A stretch of DNA of 46,240 bases from Lachnospiraceae bacterium (GTDB lineage Bacteria > Bacillota > Clostridia > Lachnospirales > Lachnospiraceae). Position 1 is the stretch's first letter; each line of letters opens with the position of its first letter. The stretch is from positions 1 through 46,240 of the forward strand of contig SVDE01000006.1 of assembly GCA_015057955.1 (NCBI GenBank), in the 5' to 3' direction. A program made the translations under genes and the position numbers. This document shows positions 4,262 to 45,031 of this stretch, piece after piece. Under the pieces are notes generated by a model, which saw only the letters and a list, made by a program, of their open reading frames with translations, was not told where the DNA came from and searched no databases.

Positions 4262-4283
4262 TGATTAAAAACTGCAGGATGAC

Positions 4284-4428
4284 TTTCCCAAATCTCCGGA
4301 CTTTCTCGCGAAAATGACATCTTACTCATGAGATTGGGGAAAGAAACCATAAGATATGCGGCAATAGTTTCCCCAATCTCCGCAATCACAGCGGAAAATC
4401 ATCATTACTCCCGGAGATTTGGGAAACT
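4284..4428. repeat. Tandem pair of r-33-f inverted-repeat elements (locus L1)
   Basis: TTTCCCAAATCTC-33nt-GAGATTGGGGAAA (4284-4342) and GTTTCCCCAATCTC-33nt-GAGATTTGGGAAAC (4367-4427); both AATCTC...GAGATT gaps count to exactly 33 nt. Confidence 0.9.
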
Positions 4429-5440: not shown

Positions 5441-5530
5441 CGAAAAAGTTGAAAAAATTCAAAGTAAAAGTGCGAAAAAGTTGAAAAAATTCAAATAATT
5501 TGCATTTTCGCTTTGAATTTTTTATAATGG
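5441..5530 (+). promoter_or_regulatory. AT-rich direct repeats and sigmaA-like promoter upstream of the DUF4143 ATPase
   Basis: CGAAAAAGTTGAAAAAATTCAAA twice (5441-5463, 5473-5495; 32 bp start to start), a partial inverted copy (5505-5523), and TTGCAT (5500-5505)-17 bp-TATAAT (5523-5528). Confidence 0.7.
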
Positions 5531-5543
5531 CTTCGAAAGCATC

Positions 5544-6869
5544 ATGTTGAACAGCAAAGTGGTGAGTGAAAAAATGTATAGAAAATTCATTGAAACCCTG
5601 AGACGGTGGGAAGCAAATAATACAAAAGAGCCGCTCCTGATTACCGGTGCAAGGCAGGTGGGGAAGACCTGGCTGATAAAGGAATTCTGTTCAAAAGAAT
5701 ACGACGATCATCTGTATCTGAACTTTGAAAGCGAGCCTCAGCTGGCAAGCATATTTGAGTCAAGTCTGGATCCAAAGGAAATAATCCGCAGGCTTGGAGT
5801 ATTTGCAGGGCGTCCGGTCAGTTCACAGACAGCATTGATATTTGATGAGATACAGAAATGTGAAAAGGCGGTTACTTCACTGAAGTATTTTTGCGAAGCT
5901 GAGGAAAACTACAGAGTGATCGGCGCGGGGAGTCTGTTGGGAGTCAAGATCAACCGATTCGAGTCGTCATTTCCGGTTGGCAAGGTTAAAGTGGTAAATC
6001 TTCCTCCAATGGATTTTGAGGAATTCCTGCTGGCGTCCGGAGAGGGGCTGCTTGCTGAAGAGATAAGAAATTCATATAACAAGATGCAAAAATTGCCCGA
6101 ATTATTGCATGAAAAGACAATTCGTCTGTACCATGATTATCTGTATGTGGGTGGAATGCCCAGATGTATTAATGACTATGTTCAGAATGGATGCGATATT
6201 TCATATTTCGATCGTGAACTGCAGGGAAACATTATCCTGGCTTATACTGCTGATATGAGCAAGTATACCTCCGGAGCGGCTGAAAGCGTCAAGATCAGGG
6301 AAATATATGATTCAGTTCCTCGTCAGCTTGCCAGAGAAAATCCTAAATTCAAATATAAGGACATACGGGGAAATGCAAATAAAAGAGATTTCCATCTGCC
6401 TCTGGACTGGCTCGTTTCTTCCGGAATTGTAATAAAAGTTGTAAAGGCGGAGCTGCCGCAAAATCCCCTGAAAGCATATGAAAATGAAAGCATATTTAAA
6501 GTCTATATGTCAGATGTGGGATTGCTTTCATTTGCAAGCGGAGTGAATTATAAGAGCTTTATTTCAGCAGAGGATAATATTTTCAAGGGCGCCATTACTG
6601 AAAACTATGTGATACAGTCCCTGGCTTCTCAGGGGCGAAGCCTGTTCTACTTCAAACCTGACGAGAGCATGGAGATAGATGTTTTACTGGAAGATGGAGA
6701 CAGCGTGATCCCTGTTGAGATCAAGTCCGGCAGACATAAACGGTCAACCAGTTTGAAAAACTATAATAACAAATTTGTTCCTCAAAAAATGATAAGGATC
6801 TCCGAAAATAATTTTGGACAGGCAGATAATCTGATATCCATACCGCTATATGCGGTTTTCTGCATCTAA
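5544..6869 (+). CDS. AAA-type ATP-binding protein with C-terminal DUF4143
   Basis: PLLITGARQVGKTWLIKEF Walker A, ALIFDEIQK Walker B, DVLLEDGDSVIPVEIKSGRHKRSTSL C-terminal PD-(D/E)XK-like motif; start may be 5574. Confidence 0.9.
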   Translation: MLNSKVVSEKMYRKFIETLRRWEANNTKEPLLITGARQVGKTWLIKEFCSKEYDDHLYLNFESEPQLASIFESSLDPKEIIRRLGVFAGRPVSSQTALIFDEIQKCEKAVTSLKYFCEAEENYRVIGAGSLLGVKINRFESSFPVGKVKVVNLPPMDFEEFLLASGEGLLAEEIRNSYNKMQKLPELLHEKTIRLYHDYLYVGGMPRCINDYVQNGCDISYFDRELQGNIILAYTADMSKYTSGAAESVKIREIYDSVPRQLARENPKFKYKDIRGNANKRDFHLPLDWLVSSGIVIKVVKAELPQNPLKAYENESIFKVYMSDVGLLSFASGVNYKSFISAEDNIFKGAITENYVIQSLASQGRSLFYFKPDESMEIDVLLEDGDSVIPVEIKSGRHKRSTSLKNYNNKFVPQKMIRISENNFGQADNLISIPLYAVFCI

Positions 6870-8692: not shown

Positions 8693-8751
8693 CTTCCTAA
8701 ATCTCGGTGATAAAAGTCAAAAAACACGCAGTAGTGCGGAGATTTAGGAAG
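8693..8751. repeat. Single r-33-f inverted-repeat element (locus L2)
   Basis: CTTCCTAAATCTC (8693-8705)-33nt-GAGATTTAGGAAG (8739-8751), perfect 13-bp arms. Confidence 0.9.
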
Positions 8752-16614: not shown

Positions 16615-16651
16615 TATTAAGGCCGGCTTTTGTCCCGGCTTTGGCCCACAG

Positions 16652-16723
16652 CCCCTGAACGGCATGTTTTTCGGGAATTTTTTCTGAAAACAGCGCGTTC
16701 AGCTGTGAAAATGCGTTCAGGGG
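16652..16723. repeat. r-34-f element with an extra f arm (locus L3)
   Basis: CCCCTGAACG (16652-16661)-34nt-CGTTCAG (16696-) and second CGTTCAGGGG (16714-16723). Confidence 0.8.
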
Positions 16724-16732
16724 CAGAAACGC

Positions 16733-18381: not shown

Positions 18382-18460
18382 GCCGGCTGCGGGACCATGC
18401 CGGCCGCGGGATTGCATGCCGGCCGCGGGATCGCGCCGGCCACGGGATTGCATACCGGCT
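18382..18460. repeat. GC-rich tandem repeat with alternating 17/19-bp units
   Basis: gccggctgcgggaccat / gccggccgcgggattgcat / gccggccgcgggatcgc / gccggccacgggattgcat / accggctgc...; 36-bp higher-order period. Confidence 0.85.
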
Positions 18461-18611
18461 GCCTCTGATCTCAGGGTCTACATGTAAAATGTCTCTAAAA
18501 GTATTGAGATTAGAGGCAATTATAGGCGGAAACTAGTGAGATTAGAGGTGAATGTGCCTCTAATCTCATGATTTTAATTAAAAGTTATCCGAAATTACCG
18601 AGATTAGAGGC
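18461..18611 (+). repeat. Composite element r-33-f-(32)-f-r-32-f (locus L4)
   Basis: GCCTCTGATCTC (18461)-33nt-GAGATTAGAGGC (18506); GAGATTAGAGG (18538); GCCTCTAATCTC (18556)-32nt-GAGATTAGAGGC (18600). Confidence 0.9.
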
Positions 18612-18641
18612 AAACTGCTGAAACAATGGAAGAAGTAAGAC

Positions 18642-20783
18642 ATGAAACCTATACATGAAATAATAGCAGAAGAATTGAATGTAAAGCCTGAGTACGTGAA
18701 GAACGTCATCGAGCTGCTGGACGACGGCAACACGATCCCGTTCATTGCGCGCTACAGAAAGGAAGTTCATGGGAGCATGGACGACACCAAGCTCAGGAAA
18801 CTGGAGGAGCGCCTTGCTTCATTGAGGAACCTCCTTGAGAGGAAGGAGACTGTGCTCCGGAGCATTGAGGAGCAGGGTGCCCTTACCGATGAGATCGCTC
18901 GTGCGCTTGATGAAGCGCTCACGATGACAGCGGTCGAAGACATTTACAGGCCGTACCGCCAGAAGAGGAAGACCAGGGCGTCAGCAGCCAAGGAGAAAGG
19001 CCTTGAGCCGCTGGCGGAGTTCCTGCTTTCGCAGGGCGGCGGGTCGCCTTTGGATGAAGCGCTGCGCTACGTTGACGCGGAAAAAGGCGTTGCGGACGCA
19101 GATGAAGCCCTGCACGGCGCAATGGACATCATTGCTGAGAAGGCCTCCGACGACAGCAACATCCGCGCGCGCCTTCGAAACCTGGCTGAGCACACAGCCG
19201 AGCTGGCCGTCAAAGCTGCGGGCGAAGAAGACTCAGTGTACAGGCAGTACTATGAGTTCTCCCAGAGGGTGTCCCGCATGAAAGGCTACCAGGTTCTCGC
19301 GATAAACCGCGGCGAGAAGGAAGGATTCCTGAAGGTTGGTATTGCATTTGAAGACGAGAGATCAGTTGAGATAATTGAGAAAGCGTTTGGACTCAAGTCG
19401 TCACCTTCTTATGAGTATCTGAAGGAGGCGATGGAGGATTCATATAGCAGGCTCATCAAACCGTCGCTCGAAAGGGAACTGCGAAACTCCCTGACCGACG
19501 AGGCGGCTAAAGGCGCGATCGACAACTTCGCGATGAACCTGAAGCCCCTGCTCATGCAGCCGCCTGTTAAGGGCAAGGTCACGCTGGGGCTCGACCCCGG
19601 CTACACACACGGCTGCAAGGCGGCGGTCGTGGACGGGACCGGCAAGGTGCTGGACACCACGGTCGTTTATCTGACATTTTCCGAGGCACGCAGGCAGGAG
19701 GGCATGCGCGTCCTTGAAGGACTCATAAAGAAGCACGGCGTTGAGACAATCGCGATCGGAAACGGGACGGCCTCCCGTGAGACCGAGGCTGCTGTGGTTG
19801 AGATGCTGCCGCGCGCCGGCGCCGGTGTTGGCTACGCGATAGTAAATGAAGCCGGCGCGTCTGTCTACTCCGCCTCCGAGCTTGCGGCCGAAGAGTTCCC
19901 TGACTACGACGTGAACCTGAGGTCCGCAATCTCCATCGCGAGAAGGCTCCAGGATCCGCTTGCTGAGCTGGTCAAGATCGACCCGATGGCGATTGGCGTC
20001 GGGCAGTATCAGCACGACATGCCGAAGGCCCAGCTGGAAAATGCCCTCGGCGGCGTTGTCGAGGACTGCGTAAATGCGGTCGGCGCTGACATCAATACCG
20101 CAAGCCCGGCCCTGCTTTCCAGGATATCGGGGCTTACCAAGACGACCGCGAAGAACATTGTAAGTTACCGTGAAGAGAACGGGATATTTAAGAGCCGCAA
20201 GGACATCCTGAAGGTTCCAAAGCTCGGACCTAAAAGCTTCGAGCAGTGCGCCGGGTTCCTTCGCGTTCCGGAGAGCCGCGAGATCCTTGACAATACGGGC
20301 GTTCACCCCGAAAGCTACGCGGCCGCTCGTGCGCTGCTTTCGCTTTGCGGATACGGGGAAGATGACATAAGATCGCACAAGGCGGATGGCCTTCGAGCGA
20401 AGATCGAGGCGATCGGCTGGAAGAAGGCTGCTGCTGAGTGCGGCTGCGGCGTGCCGACATTAACTGACATTGCCGCCGAGCTCATGAAGCCGGGGCGTGA
20501 CCCCAGGGATGAGCTGCCGCCCACGGTGCTTAGGAAAGATGTCCTTGAGATGAAGGACCTTAAGCCCGGCATGAAGCTTAAGGGCACGGTCCGCAACGTC
20601 ACGGACTTCGGCGCTTTCGTGGACATAGGCGTCCACCAGGACGGGCTCGTCCACATCTCCCAGCTTGCGGACCGTTTCGTGAAGCACCCGTCTGACATTG
20701 TGAAGGTCGGTGACATCGTTGATGTCACCGTTCTGGAAGTCGACGAGGCAAAGAAGCGGATCTCGCTGACTATGAAGAAATGA
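18642..20783 (+). CDS. tex: Tex family RNA-binding transcription accessory protein
   Basis: VTLGLDPGYTHGCKAAVVDGTGKVLDTTVVYL (YqgF-like), HhH region, C-terminal S1 domain GTVRNVTDFGAFVDIGVHQDGLVHISQLADRFV. Confidence 0.97.
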   Translation: MKPIHEIIAEELNVKPEYVKNVIELLDDGNTIPFIARYRKEVHGSMDDTKLRKLEERLASLRNLLERKETVLRSIEEQGALTDEIARALDEALTMTAVEDIYRPYRQKRKTRASAAKEKGLEPLAEFLLSQGGGSPLDEALRYVDAEKGVADADEALHGAMDIIAEKASDDSNIRARLRNLAEHTAELAVKAAGEEDSVYRQYYEFSQRVSRMKGYQVLAINRGEKEGFLKVGIAFEDERSVEIIEKAFGLKSSPSYEYLKEAMEDSYSRLIKPSLERELRNSLTDEAAKGAIDNFAMNLKPLLMQPPVKGKVTLGLDPGYTHGCKAAVVDGTGKVLDTTVVYLTFSEARRQEGMRVLEGLIKKHGVETIAIGNGTASRETEAAVVEMLPRAGAGVGYAIVNEAGASVYSASELAAEEFPDYDVNLRSAISIARRLQDPLAELVKIDPMAIGVGQYQHDMPKAQLENALGGVVEDCVNAVGADINTASPALLSRISGLTKTTAKNIVSYREENGIFKSRKDILKVPKLGPKSFEQCAGFLRVPESREILDNTGVHPESYAAARALLSLCGYGEDDIRSHKADGLRAKIEAIGWKKAAAECGCGVPTLTDIAAELMKPGRDPRDELPPTVLRKDVLEMKDLKPGMKLKGTVRNVTDFGAFVDIGVHQDGLVHISQLADRFVKHPSDIVKVGDIVDVTVLEVDEAKKRISLTMKK

Positions 20784-20790
20784 TATGCGG

Positions 20791-21152
20791 CGCTAGGGGG
20801 TGGTTTACCCCCTAGCGTCATGTTTTTATGACATTATCTATCGAAAGTGGTACGCTAGGGGGCAATTTTGGCAGGAGCTGAGGCGTTAGGGGGCAGAAAG
20901 TGCCCCCTAGCGCCGGGGTTTGAAGGTGCCAGAGACAAAAAACAAGCCGTTAGGGGGCAATGTGCCCCCTAACGGCAGAGGTTGAATAACAAAAGTAATG
21001 GCAGAGGTCGAATAACAAAAGTAAAGCCGCTAGGGGGTGGTTTACCCCCTAGCGCCGGGGTATGAAGGTGTCAGAGACAAAAAACAAGCCGTTAGGGGGC
21101 AATGTGCCCCCTAACGGCAGAGGTCACATAGCAAAAGTAGTGCCCCCTAACG
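20791..21152 (+). repeat. Composite array of f/r arms with 35-nt spacers (locus L5)
   Basis: f CGYTAGGGGG at 20791, 20853, 20884, 20948, 21028, 21090; r CCCCCTARCG at 20808, 20903, 20965, 21045, 21107, 21143; r-to-f gaps 35, 35 and 35 nt (one gap is 53). Confidence 0.95.
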
Positions 21153-21176: not shown

Positions 21177-21761
21177 TTAAACCGGCCGCGGGCTTCCGCA
21201 GTTCGGGCAGAACTTGGTGGTGTTCTGGCTTCCGCAAGTGCAGATCCATTTGCCTTGCTCTGTGAGGAAGTTGGCAAAGATATTTGCTTCCGGAGTTACG
21301 GTGCGGATGAATTCGCCTGTGTCCTCACATTCTTTCAGCAGTTCCTCAATCTTTTCCTCAAGAGTCTTTAATGCATTGTGGTAGGAGCCGCCCTGGATGG
21401 TGACGTTGTTGCGGGTGCTGCCGCCTAAACTGCTGTCGTCAAATGTCATCCTGATCGTAACACTAACAAAATTGTCATACATCATAATGGGGAATTCTTT
21501 ATCCGCCAGTTCTTCAAGATGCTTTTCTGCGACAAGATCCCTGACTTTCTGCGCAGCTTCGGGTGTGACCAGGTATTCGTTTGCTGTGGTCTGCCCGTGG
21601 ACATTCTCGCTGATGGTGAGCACTGCCGTGCCGTCCTCCTTCCACTCAAGCGCCTTGTCAAGGCTTGAGCCTGTTCCCATCATCATTCCATTTGAAAAAA
21701 GGTTGTAACTGAATTCGATCAGCGGACCGTGGGTTTTAACGTTTAGATCAGGCATGTTCAT
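21177..21761 (-). CDS. Zinc-ribbon containing hypothetical protein
   Basis: C-terminal WICTCGSQNTTKFCPNCGSPRPV zinc ribbon. Confidence 0.7.
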   Translation of the reverse strand: MNMPDLNVKTHGPLIEFSYNLFSNGMMMGTGSSLDKALEWKEDGTAVLTISENVHGQTTANEYLVTPEAAQKVRDLVAEKHLEELADKEFPIMMYDNFVSVTIRMTFDDSSLGGSTRNNVTIQGGSYHNALKTLEEKIEELLKECEDTGEFIRTVTPEANIFANFLTEQGKWICTCGSQNTTKFCPNCGSPRPV

Positions 21762-35256: not shown

Positions 35257-35316
35257 ATGGAAGGTAAAAGCTCCTCATGAACCAGCACCTTATACAACAG
35301 TCCTTTAGACAGCTAA

Positions 35317-35370
35317 CCCCTAAACGGCATGTTTTTTAGAAATTTTATTCAAAAACATCGCGTTCAGGGG
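35317..35370. repeat. r-34-f inverted-repeat element (locus L6)
   Basis: CCCCTAAACG (35317-35326)-34nt-CGTTCAGGGG (35361-35370); inner ATGTTTTT/AAAAACAT can extend the stem. Confidence 0.85.
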
Positions 35371-35570
35371 TTGTTTGATCATTTGTCGCTTGAAAGGAGA
35401 CCTTGCCTGCTTTTAAGCGTTCTATAATGAGCGCAAAAGGAGGTAAGATCAAATCCGCCAAACCTGAAGAATAAATCCCGTTATCTCCCTCTGCCCACTG
35501 TGTATTGCGTGCGGATGTTTGGGTATATTATAGTTGAGACATGGATCCGCACACAAATAAGGAGGACAGC

Positions 35571-37187: not shown

Positions 37188-37207
37188 CGAATAATGACAT
37201 TAATGTA

Positions 37208-37236
37208 GCGTACAGGTGCATGCCGCGCCTGTACGC
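37208..37236 (+). terminator. Hairpin downstream of the HTH gene, possible terminator
   Basis: GCGTACAGG...CCTGTACGC followed by AATATTTT. Confidence 0.5.
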
Positions 37237-37314
37237 AATATTTTCATAAATTTACATTCGAAAATACACAGTATAGGGGTTATAATTTAACCTGCATTAA
37301 ACGGGAGGGCAATT

Positions 37315-40933: not shown

Positions 40934-40996
40934 TGCCCCCATCCACGGGATTTTGCCATCATATCCGGCAGAAATCCTGTGGATGGGGGCTTTTTT
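40934..40996 (+). terminator. Long intrinsic terminator
   Basis: GCCCCCATCCACGGGATTTTGCC / GGCAGAAATCCTGTGGATGGGGGC then TTTTTT. Confidence 0.9.
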
Positions 40997-43771: not shown

Positions 43772-44311
43772 ATGGCAAACAAATACGAAGGAACCCAGAC
43801 AGAAAAGAACCTGATGGCCGCTTTCGCAGGCGAGTCAGAAGCACGCAACAAGTATACATATTTTGCCTCCAAGGCAAAGAAGGAAGGATTCGAGCAGATC
43901 TCTGCCCTCTTCACCAAGACGGCTGACAATGAAAAAGAACATGCCGAGCTCTGGTTCAAGGAGCTGAACGGCATCGGCAACACCGCCGAGAACCTGCTCG
44001 CTGCCGCTGAGGGCGAGAACTACGAGTGGACTGACATGTACGCAGGATTTGCCGAGACGGCAGATGCCGAGGGCTTCCATGAGCTGGCTGCTAAGTTCCG
44101 CATGGTAGCTGAGATCGAGAAGCATCACGAGGAGCGCTACCGTGCACTGCTCAAGAATGTGGAGACCCAGCAGGTATTTGAAAAGAGTGAAGTCAAGATC
44201 TGGGAGTGCCGCAACTGCGGACATATCATGGTCGGAACGAAAGCTCCGCAGGTATGCCCTGTCTGCGCACATCCGCAGAGCTACTTTGAGATCAACTCGA
44301 AGAACTATTGA
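43772..44311 (+). CDS. rbr: Rubrerythrin
   Basis: Ferritin-like [22 protein letters not shown] and C-terminal rubredoxin [27 protein letters not shown]. Confidence 0.96.
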
Positions 44312-44333: not shown

Positions 44334-44517
44334 CGTTAGGGGGCAGTTTGCCCCATAACGGCTGGTTTAGACATGAAAATAGGCCAAAACTGCAGCGTTA
44401 GGGGGCAGTTTTGACCAGATAATGTGCGTTAGGGGGCAAAAAGTGCCCCATAGCGCACCAGCTTACATAAAATATATTAAGAAAACCTAGCGTTAGGGGG
44501 CAAACCGCCCCCTAACG
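44334..44517 (+). repeat. 184-bp composite f-r-[35]-f-(31)-f-r-[35]-f-r element (locus L7)
   Basis: f CGTTAGGGGG at 44334, 44396, 44427, 44491; r CCCCATAACG 44351, CCCCATAGCG 44446, CCCCCTAACG 44508. Confidence 0.95.
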
Positions 44518-44527
44518 CCAAGCAAAG

Positions 44528-45031
44528 ATGAGACTCTTTATCGCGATCAAACTTAATGAAGAGATCAAACAGGAGCTGATAGAGGCACAGAACCGGATGT
44601 ATGAGAGCGGAGTGAGCGGAAAGTTCTCTCCGGAGGAGAACCTGCATCTTACTCTGGCTTTTATCGGCGAGTATCCGGACCCGGAGGCGGTCATGGACGT
44701 CATCTCGACTGTGCCGTTCACACCATTTGACATCGCCTTAGACGGATTCGGAACATTTACCGACACCTGGTGGGCGGGAGTTAAGGAGAACCCCGCGCTG
44801 CAGGCGGTTGTGAGAAGGATAAGAAGAGCCCTCTCGGAAGCGGGGATCCCATTTGATAAAAAGCCGTTCAGGCCGCACATCACACTGGTGAGACGGGCGA
44901 AGGCGCAGCTTGGAGTACCGGAGATGGAAGCGCTCAGCGCCTGCATGAGGGTGATGTACATTTCCCTCATGCGCTCGGACCGCGGAAAGAACGGGATGAT
45001 ATATACAGAAGTCGGAAGGGTGGAGTCATGA
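44528..45031 (+). CDS. thpR: RNA 2',3'-cyclic phosphodiesterase ThpR
   Basis: MRLFIAIKLNEEIKQEL; LHLTLAFIG and PHITLVRRA (HxTL) motifs. Confidence 0.93.
   Translation: MRLFIAIKLNEEIKQELIEAQNRMYESGVSGKFSPEENLHLTLAFIGEYPDPEAVMDVISTVPFTPFDIALDGFGTFTDTWWAGVKENPALQAVVRRIRRALSEAGIPFDKKPFRPHITLVRRAKAQLGVPEMEALSACMRVMYISLMRSDRGKNGMIYTEVGRVES

Follow-up and report, generated by a model that had tools for sequence, protein, structure and literature searches.

The stretch of DNA analysed here (46,240 nt, hereafter the window) corresponds to contig C187 in a Lachnospiraceae draft genome of 2.94 Mb in 263 contigs, which is 91.6% complete. Near its end, a composite palindromic element, L7 (44334–44517, plus strand), lies between a rubrerythrin gene (43772–44311), the stop codon of which is 23 nt before the start of L7, and a 2'-5' RNA ligase gene (44528–45031), the ATG of which is 10 nt past its end. 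These two genes are co-directional, so the L7 locus is not convergent. The element consists of seven short arms, either f or its near-complement r, in the order f1 (44334–44343), r1 (44351–44360), f2 (44396–44405), f3 (44427–44436), r3 (44446–44455), f4 (44491–44500), and r4 (44508–44517). The r1–f2 and r3–f4 gaps are both 35 nt, and the start-to-start distances are 31 nt for f2–f3, 62 nt for f1–f2, and 64 nt for f3–f4. The outer arms form two hairpins, H1 (f1:r1; 44334–44360, plus strand) and H4 (f4:r4; 44491–44517, plus strand), on either side of a central block (f2, f3, and r3; 44396–44455, plus strand), in which the f2:r3 arms of about 19 nt are symmetric about the element centre and f3 breaks this symmetry, thereby setting the orientation. 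A second full element with an identical layout, L5 (20791–20974, plus strand), starts 7 nt past the stop codon of the tex gene (18642–20783) and faces a convergent gene on the minus strand (21177–21761). It is adjoined by a tandem partial copy with a deleted centre (20975–21152, plus strand), composed of an H1-like hairpin (21028–21054), a 35-nt spacer, an H4-like hairpin (21090–21116), and an additional r arm (21143–21152), with 26-nt direct repeats lying in between. The coordinates, arm order, gaps, offset, and periods given for L7 and L5 in the preliminary description all hold. The arm motif, with at most one mismatch, occurs 18 times in the window against 1.5 expected, a number reached in 0 of 100 shuffles. 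When the seven-arm geometry was sought with the arm sequence left free, it was found at L5, at L7, and at a third site, 18507, with 0 matches in three block-shuffled controls; genome-wide, this sequence-agnostic approach covered about 0.5 Mb.

Exact arm matches in the host genome were nearly all clustered, and 13 clusters had the complete L7 order. These 13 full copies, which include L7 and L5 and are referred to as family A, occur in both orientations on many contigs, with flanks unrelated to one another. A covariance model built from the 13 clusters (R1) regained the same copies at 193–194 nt; the next matches, C41:20404 and C41:18975, differed in their arms (GCTATGGGG) and in a longer H1 region, with the r1–f2 and f2–f3 distances unchanged when the sequence was read by eye, and those ranked after this pair were partial copies. 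All family-A copies were 184 bp long except one of 183 bp. Start to start, f2–f3 was 31 nt and f3–f4 64 nt in 13/13 copies, f1–f2 was 62 nt in 12/13 and 61 nt in one, f2–f4 was 95 nt, r1–r3 was 95 nt (94 nt in one copy), and r3–r4 was 62 nt. The centre of f2/r3 coincides with that of the element, which is symmetric but for f3. This rigidity is found in spacers that have diverged extensively: the p-distance was 0.54 in the spacers (random, 0.71) versus 0.19 in the arm and hairpin columns. On a tree of the spacer columns, approximately 540 substitutions were inferred versus one single-base deletion, and about 11 indels would be expected even at 1 per 50 substitutions, counts to be read with the distances near saturation and with copies carrying large indels scoring as partial. 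Although those of L7 and L5 were described beforehand as not obviously similar, the spacers of the family proved to be homologous, with pairwise p-distances of 0.32–0.67 between copies (random, 0.71) and with tracts in fixed columns: TTT follows both r arms r1 and r3, and AAA precedes both f2 and f4. The central proposal of the preliminary description, constant geometry with changing sequence, was borne out by this ratio of indels to substitutions and by the persistence of the layout when the arms change; the genome search with the model gave 13 intergenic copies with the same gaps and no broad gap distribution, and the copies are not recent duplicates. The feature represented by L7 is real and non-random, extends across the genome, and is under constraint on its length and not on its sequence.

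Weak R1 matches, including one in the window at 18464–18623, led to a second family of 11 copies, family B, which has the arms GAGATTAGAGGC where family A has GCGTTAGGGGGC in a nearly identical layout and is likewise scattered over many contigs with unrelated flanks. The family-B element in the window (18460–18611, plus strand; arms GAGATTAGAGGC/T) shares the layout of L7 but lacks f1 and r4, the outer arms, which are absent from family B, and its remaining arms start at 18462 (r1), 18506 (f2), 18538 (f3), 18557 (r3), and 18600 (f4). The family-B distances (f2–f3, 32; f3–r3, 19; r1–r3, 94/95; and f2–f4, 94/95) closely follow those of family A; the two families align nearly without gaps over a 153-column core despite their different arms, and a joint model (R2) finds both together in the host genome. 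The rigid layout comprises 5–7 arms of 10–12 nt each. A third arm type, type C (4283–4428, plus strand), has outer arms GAGATTTGGGAAA and inner arms GAGATTGGGGAAA with gaps of about 33 nt and lacks f3; its r1:f4 and f2:r3 pairs are complementary at 16/16 and 13/13 positions, respectively, and the outer and inner pairs differ in sequence. From the alignment of families A and B and the arms of type C, it follows that the arms of any one locus switch together and the layout persists. A single r–33–f module at 8693–8751 (plus strand; CTTCCTAAATCTC ... GAGATTTAGGAAG) is probably a reduced relative, and a weak, degenerate r–34–f module was found with R2 at 35315–35371 (plus strand; E 0.03). The latter is related to a module at 16650–16724, both with CCCCTGAACGGCATGTTTTT ... 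GCGTTCAGGGG-like arms, and the two may constitute a further sub-family. Elsewhere in the genome, a hairpin with apparently another arm type (GCCGCTTCGGGGCGAACCGCCCCGAAACGGC) adjoins a family-B element at C14:4108–4529, on a contig that also carries a family-A element. Other inverted repeats in the window include a long-stem, terminator-like repeat at 40935–40990 (GCCCCCATCCACGGGATTT ... AAATCCTGTGGATGGGGGC, with an 18-nt loop, then TTTTTT), which resembles an r–f module with other arms; an isolated hairpin at 37202–37242 (GCGTACAGGTGC / GCGCCTGTACGC), a weak R1 match followed by an A/T-rich stretch; and a 34-nt imperfect, A/T-rich inverted repeat with a 4-nt loop at 5452–5523, just upstream of a frame at 5544.

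No significant match to either R1 or R2 was found in 13 congeners, in which R2 gave only two marginal matches (E 0.04–0.06) without the full layout. The same was true of 396 other genomes of the family searched with R2 and of 391 genomes of the order searched with R1, large searches in which only 6–7 candidates were scored per genome. A search of 85k named species with the A-type hairpin pattern retrieved only six unrelated single hairpins, and searches of viral contigs, plasmids, and phages were negative or yielded one single hairpin. Nothing in Rfam exceeded the gathering score, in agreement with the earlier view that the element belongs to no described family. The sites in relatives that could have shown an empty insertion point were uninformative, as the nearest relative has 64–74% protein identity and its neighbourhoods are not syntenic. 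These searches suggest that the composite palindrome family is lineage-specific.

Such a distribution could reflect a MITE-like, non-autonomous transposon with no host role, the arms of which would be transposase sites in terminal and subterminal inverted repeats, the short length of which would force the helical phasing of its ends, and the copies of which would survive best between convergent genes. The elements do share the MITE traits of being short (150–184 bp), non-coding, dispersed, and species-restricted, with terminal inverted repeats; family B and type C resemble inverted-repeat elements in which r1/f4 is the outer pair, and the copies on contigs C88 and C122 are inserted between existing terminators. 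However, no target-site duplication was detected above permuted flanks: in family A the best flank match (6/13) corresponds to the stem arms, with permuted flanks reaching up to 8, and none was found in family B. Nor was an autonomous relative with the same ends seen at the arm clusters or by the Y1 transposases. The only Y1 transposases found were two PF01797 (Y1_Tnp) matches, TnpA, in IS605-type tnpA/tnpB pairs (L051 3311–5111 and L052 530–2429); both overlap TnpB-like frames, and neither gene had arms nearby. Moreover, neutral resident copies should gather indels, and one was observed against approximately 540 substitutions. We regard this plain MITE-like reading as rather unlikely.

The family-A copies are located mainly at tail-to-tail gene junctions. 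Using gene calls from a simple codon-score caller rather than a full annotation, 9/13 copies lay between convergent genes, versus 16/122 among the intergenic regions with a length of 60 bp or more (Fisher p = 3e-5), and one or both stop codons were often <20 nt away. With a T-tract defined as 4 or more T within 6 nt, inward tracts followed H1 in 13/13 copies and H4 in 11/13 (24/26 hairpins), versus outward tracts at H1 in 3/13 and H4 in 4/13 (7/26 hairpins), so the inward sides of family A have the form of an intrinsic terminator, i.e., a GC-rich hairpin with a T-tract within a few nucleotides. For example, H4 of L7 is terminator-like on the minus strand (44523–44485, then TTTCTT), and this hairpin and H1 and H4 of L5 were flagged independently by a terminator scan. 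At 6/9 of the convergent loci, scanning gave no convincing separate flanking terminator, the flanking call at one of these six, C61, being doubtful. Judged from these signals, family A probably also terminates transcription from both sides. Canonical terminators are already present on both sides of the copies on C88 and C122 and on one side of that on C8, where the element would be redundant as a terminator. In family B, the T-tracts were inconsistent and mostly absent, terminators within the element were found in 2/11 copies, and only 3 of about 9 copies were at convergent junctions, in otherwise mixed contexts; termination consequently cannot be the function common to all families. A two-sided intrinsic terminator or 3'-end element acting purely as RNA, with no DNA-level role, would explain the inward T-tracts, the convergent location, the compensatory changes in the GC-rich hairpins, and the fact that the element is often the sole terminator candidate at its locus. 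It leaves unexplained the fixed distances of 35, 31, and 64 nt, as well as the f2/f3/r3 block and family B with its general lack of T-tracts, and we consider it quite improbable as a full explanation.

When covariation in family A was counted helix by helix against shuffles, the pairing of H1 and H4 was supported across the 13 copies, with counts exceeding those of all or nearly all shuffles. The pairing f3:r3 was near the shuffle level, and the whole-element pairing f1:r4 with r1:f4 was at it. Central f2:r3 pairing was considered and rejected: the arms are complementary, but their covariation within family A was not above that of the shuffles. Pooling three helices gave apparent support for f2:r3, which the single-helix counts traced to H1 and H4 only, and the f2:r3 covariation between families A and B is shared by all arms and is thus not decisive. 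Of the selection on a fold proposed in the preliminary description, the part concerning the outer hairpins is supported by this covariation. Two copy-specific double changes (T-A to A-T in f1:r1 of the C14 copy and G-C to T-A in f4:r4 of the C205 copy) suggest selection on resident copies. Folding energy and covariation disagree, because the minimum-energy single-strand fold is a whole-element hairpin (z about −11 versus shuffles), whereas covariation supports the local hairpins H1 and H4, which would form first during transcription. The proposed two-state RNA or extruded DNA, alternating between f1:r1/f3:r3/f4:r4 and r1:f2/r3:f4, draws on the complementarity of the arms in many combinations and on that stability, but is scarcely credible with r1:f2 and r3:f4 covariation below that of most shuffles and with neither f3:r3 nor the whole-element pairing rising above the shuffle level. 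A G-quadruplex formed by four GGGGG tracts was also discarded, as family B (GAGATTAGAGG) has no G-runs and the tracts are not a family property.

Among known repeats, the closest parallels are the repetitive extragenic palindromes (REPs) and bacterial interspersed mosaic elements (BIMEs); host proteins that bind BIMEs include IHF and gyrase. REPs and BIMEs are reported to be regularly spaced, alternating palindromes that lie mostly at 3' ends, either convergent or unidirectional, and BIMEs to bind several proteins (PMC2817692, PMC3733652). The elements described here are similar in consisting of short, GC-rich, intergenic palindromes in alternating, regular composite arrays, and the f/r order and distances are constant in families A and B. 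H1 and H4, at 27–37 bp, lie within the REP size range (20–40 bp) and are intergenic like REPs; the copy number of the element is low, with about 24 full copies rather than >100. Neither of the REP tags GTAG and CGTC was found, and the H1/H4 flanks of the 13 copies show paired ATGCC/GGCAT-like extensions without a constant tag. Unlike in REPs and BIMEs, the geometry of the whole element is invariant while the spacers drift, and from one sub-family to another the arms are all exchanged together. REPINs, which are REP doublets mobilised by RAYTs (PMC3116915), also consist of a short palindrome in two inverted copies that flank a spacer, and are dispersed extragenically; in contrast, our elements have seven arms over 184 bp. 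No RAYT, and hence no cognate RAYT flanked by the repeat, was found by the Y1_Tnp search of the host genome at 91.6% completeness, and a RAYT-driven REPIN was rejected on this basis. MITEs and the RU-1/RU-2 elements (PMC2229807, PMC2759123) are likewise non-coding and intergenic, 100–200 bp long, with inverted-repeat ends, but the present elements differ from them in the internal palindromes at fixed helical distances, and neither a target-site duplication nor an autonomous partner was found. Bidirectional intrinsic terminators share with family A the hairpin and T-tract on both strands and the convergent gene ends, but not the repeated family or the internal symmetric block, and family B lacks consistent T-tracts. 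A CRISPR array was rejected because the copies are dispersed singly, the spacers are homologous with fixed T/A tracts, and there is an internal f2–f3 step. The element is built like a BIME and would function like one, and we do not file it as a REP, a REPIN, or a proven MITE.

The explanation that we favour, to which we assign an even chance, is a lineage-specific, BIME-like composite palindrome in which the arms are predicted to be helically phased protein sites and family A also terminates transcription. The arms would be binding sites for a putative dedicated DNA-binding protein. Arms in the same orientation are 31, 62, 64, and 95 nt apart, corresponding to about 3, 6, 6, and 9 helical turns, which would align them on a common helical face, and the complex with the protein would fix the spacing. 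Protein recognition is preferred over a purely RNA role because of these fixed helical distances and the set-wise replacement of the arms. The copies may once have dispersed as non-autonomous elements, and selection would now keep them where they are. A transcript running into a family-A copy from one gene or the other would fold into H1 (on the opposite strand, H4) and then continue into a U-tract, making the copy a candidate two-sided intrinsic terminator; the inward T-tracts and the location make this the likely added role of family A. A point against the explanation is that termination by itself would call for no fixed spacers. More speculatively, and in our estimation unlikely, the elements may be chromosome-wide, protein-organised DNA scaffolds at gene ends, with whole sets of arms (A, A', B, and C) exchanged on an architecture that is constant at the level of single nucleotides, and with the recognition sequence and its protein co-evolving as in REP/RAYT systems but without a RAYT. 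They would then represent an undescribed class of composite palindromes that serve two-sided termination along with DNA architecture or insulation.

For most bacterial repeat families, sequence conservation is the defining feature. In the present elements, it is distance that is conserved: the spacers are near random yet invariant in length, and the arms change as a set between sub-families. The long-open question of selection on palindromic intergenic repeats thereby becomes directly testable, by altering the spacer length with the arms untouched. If the termination reading is true, family A would also offer a compact, natural two-sided terminator.
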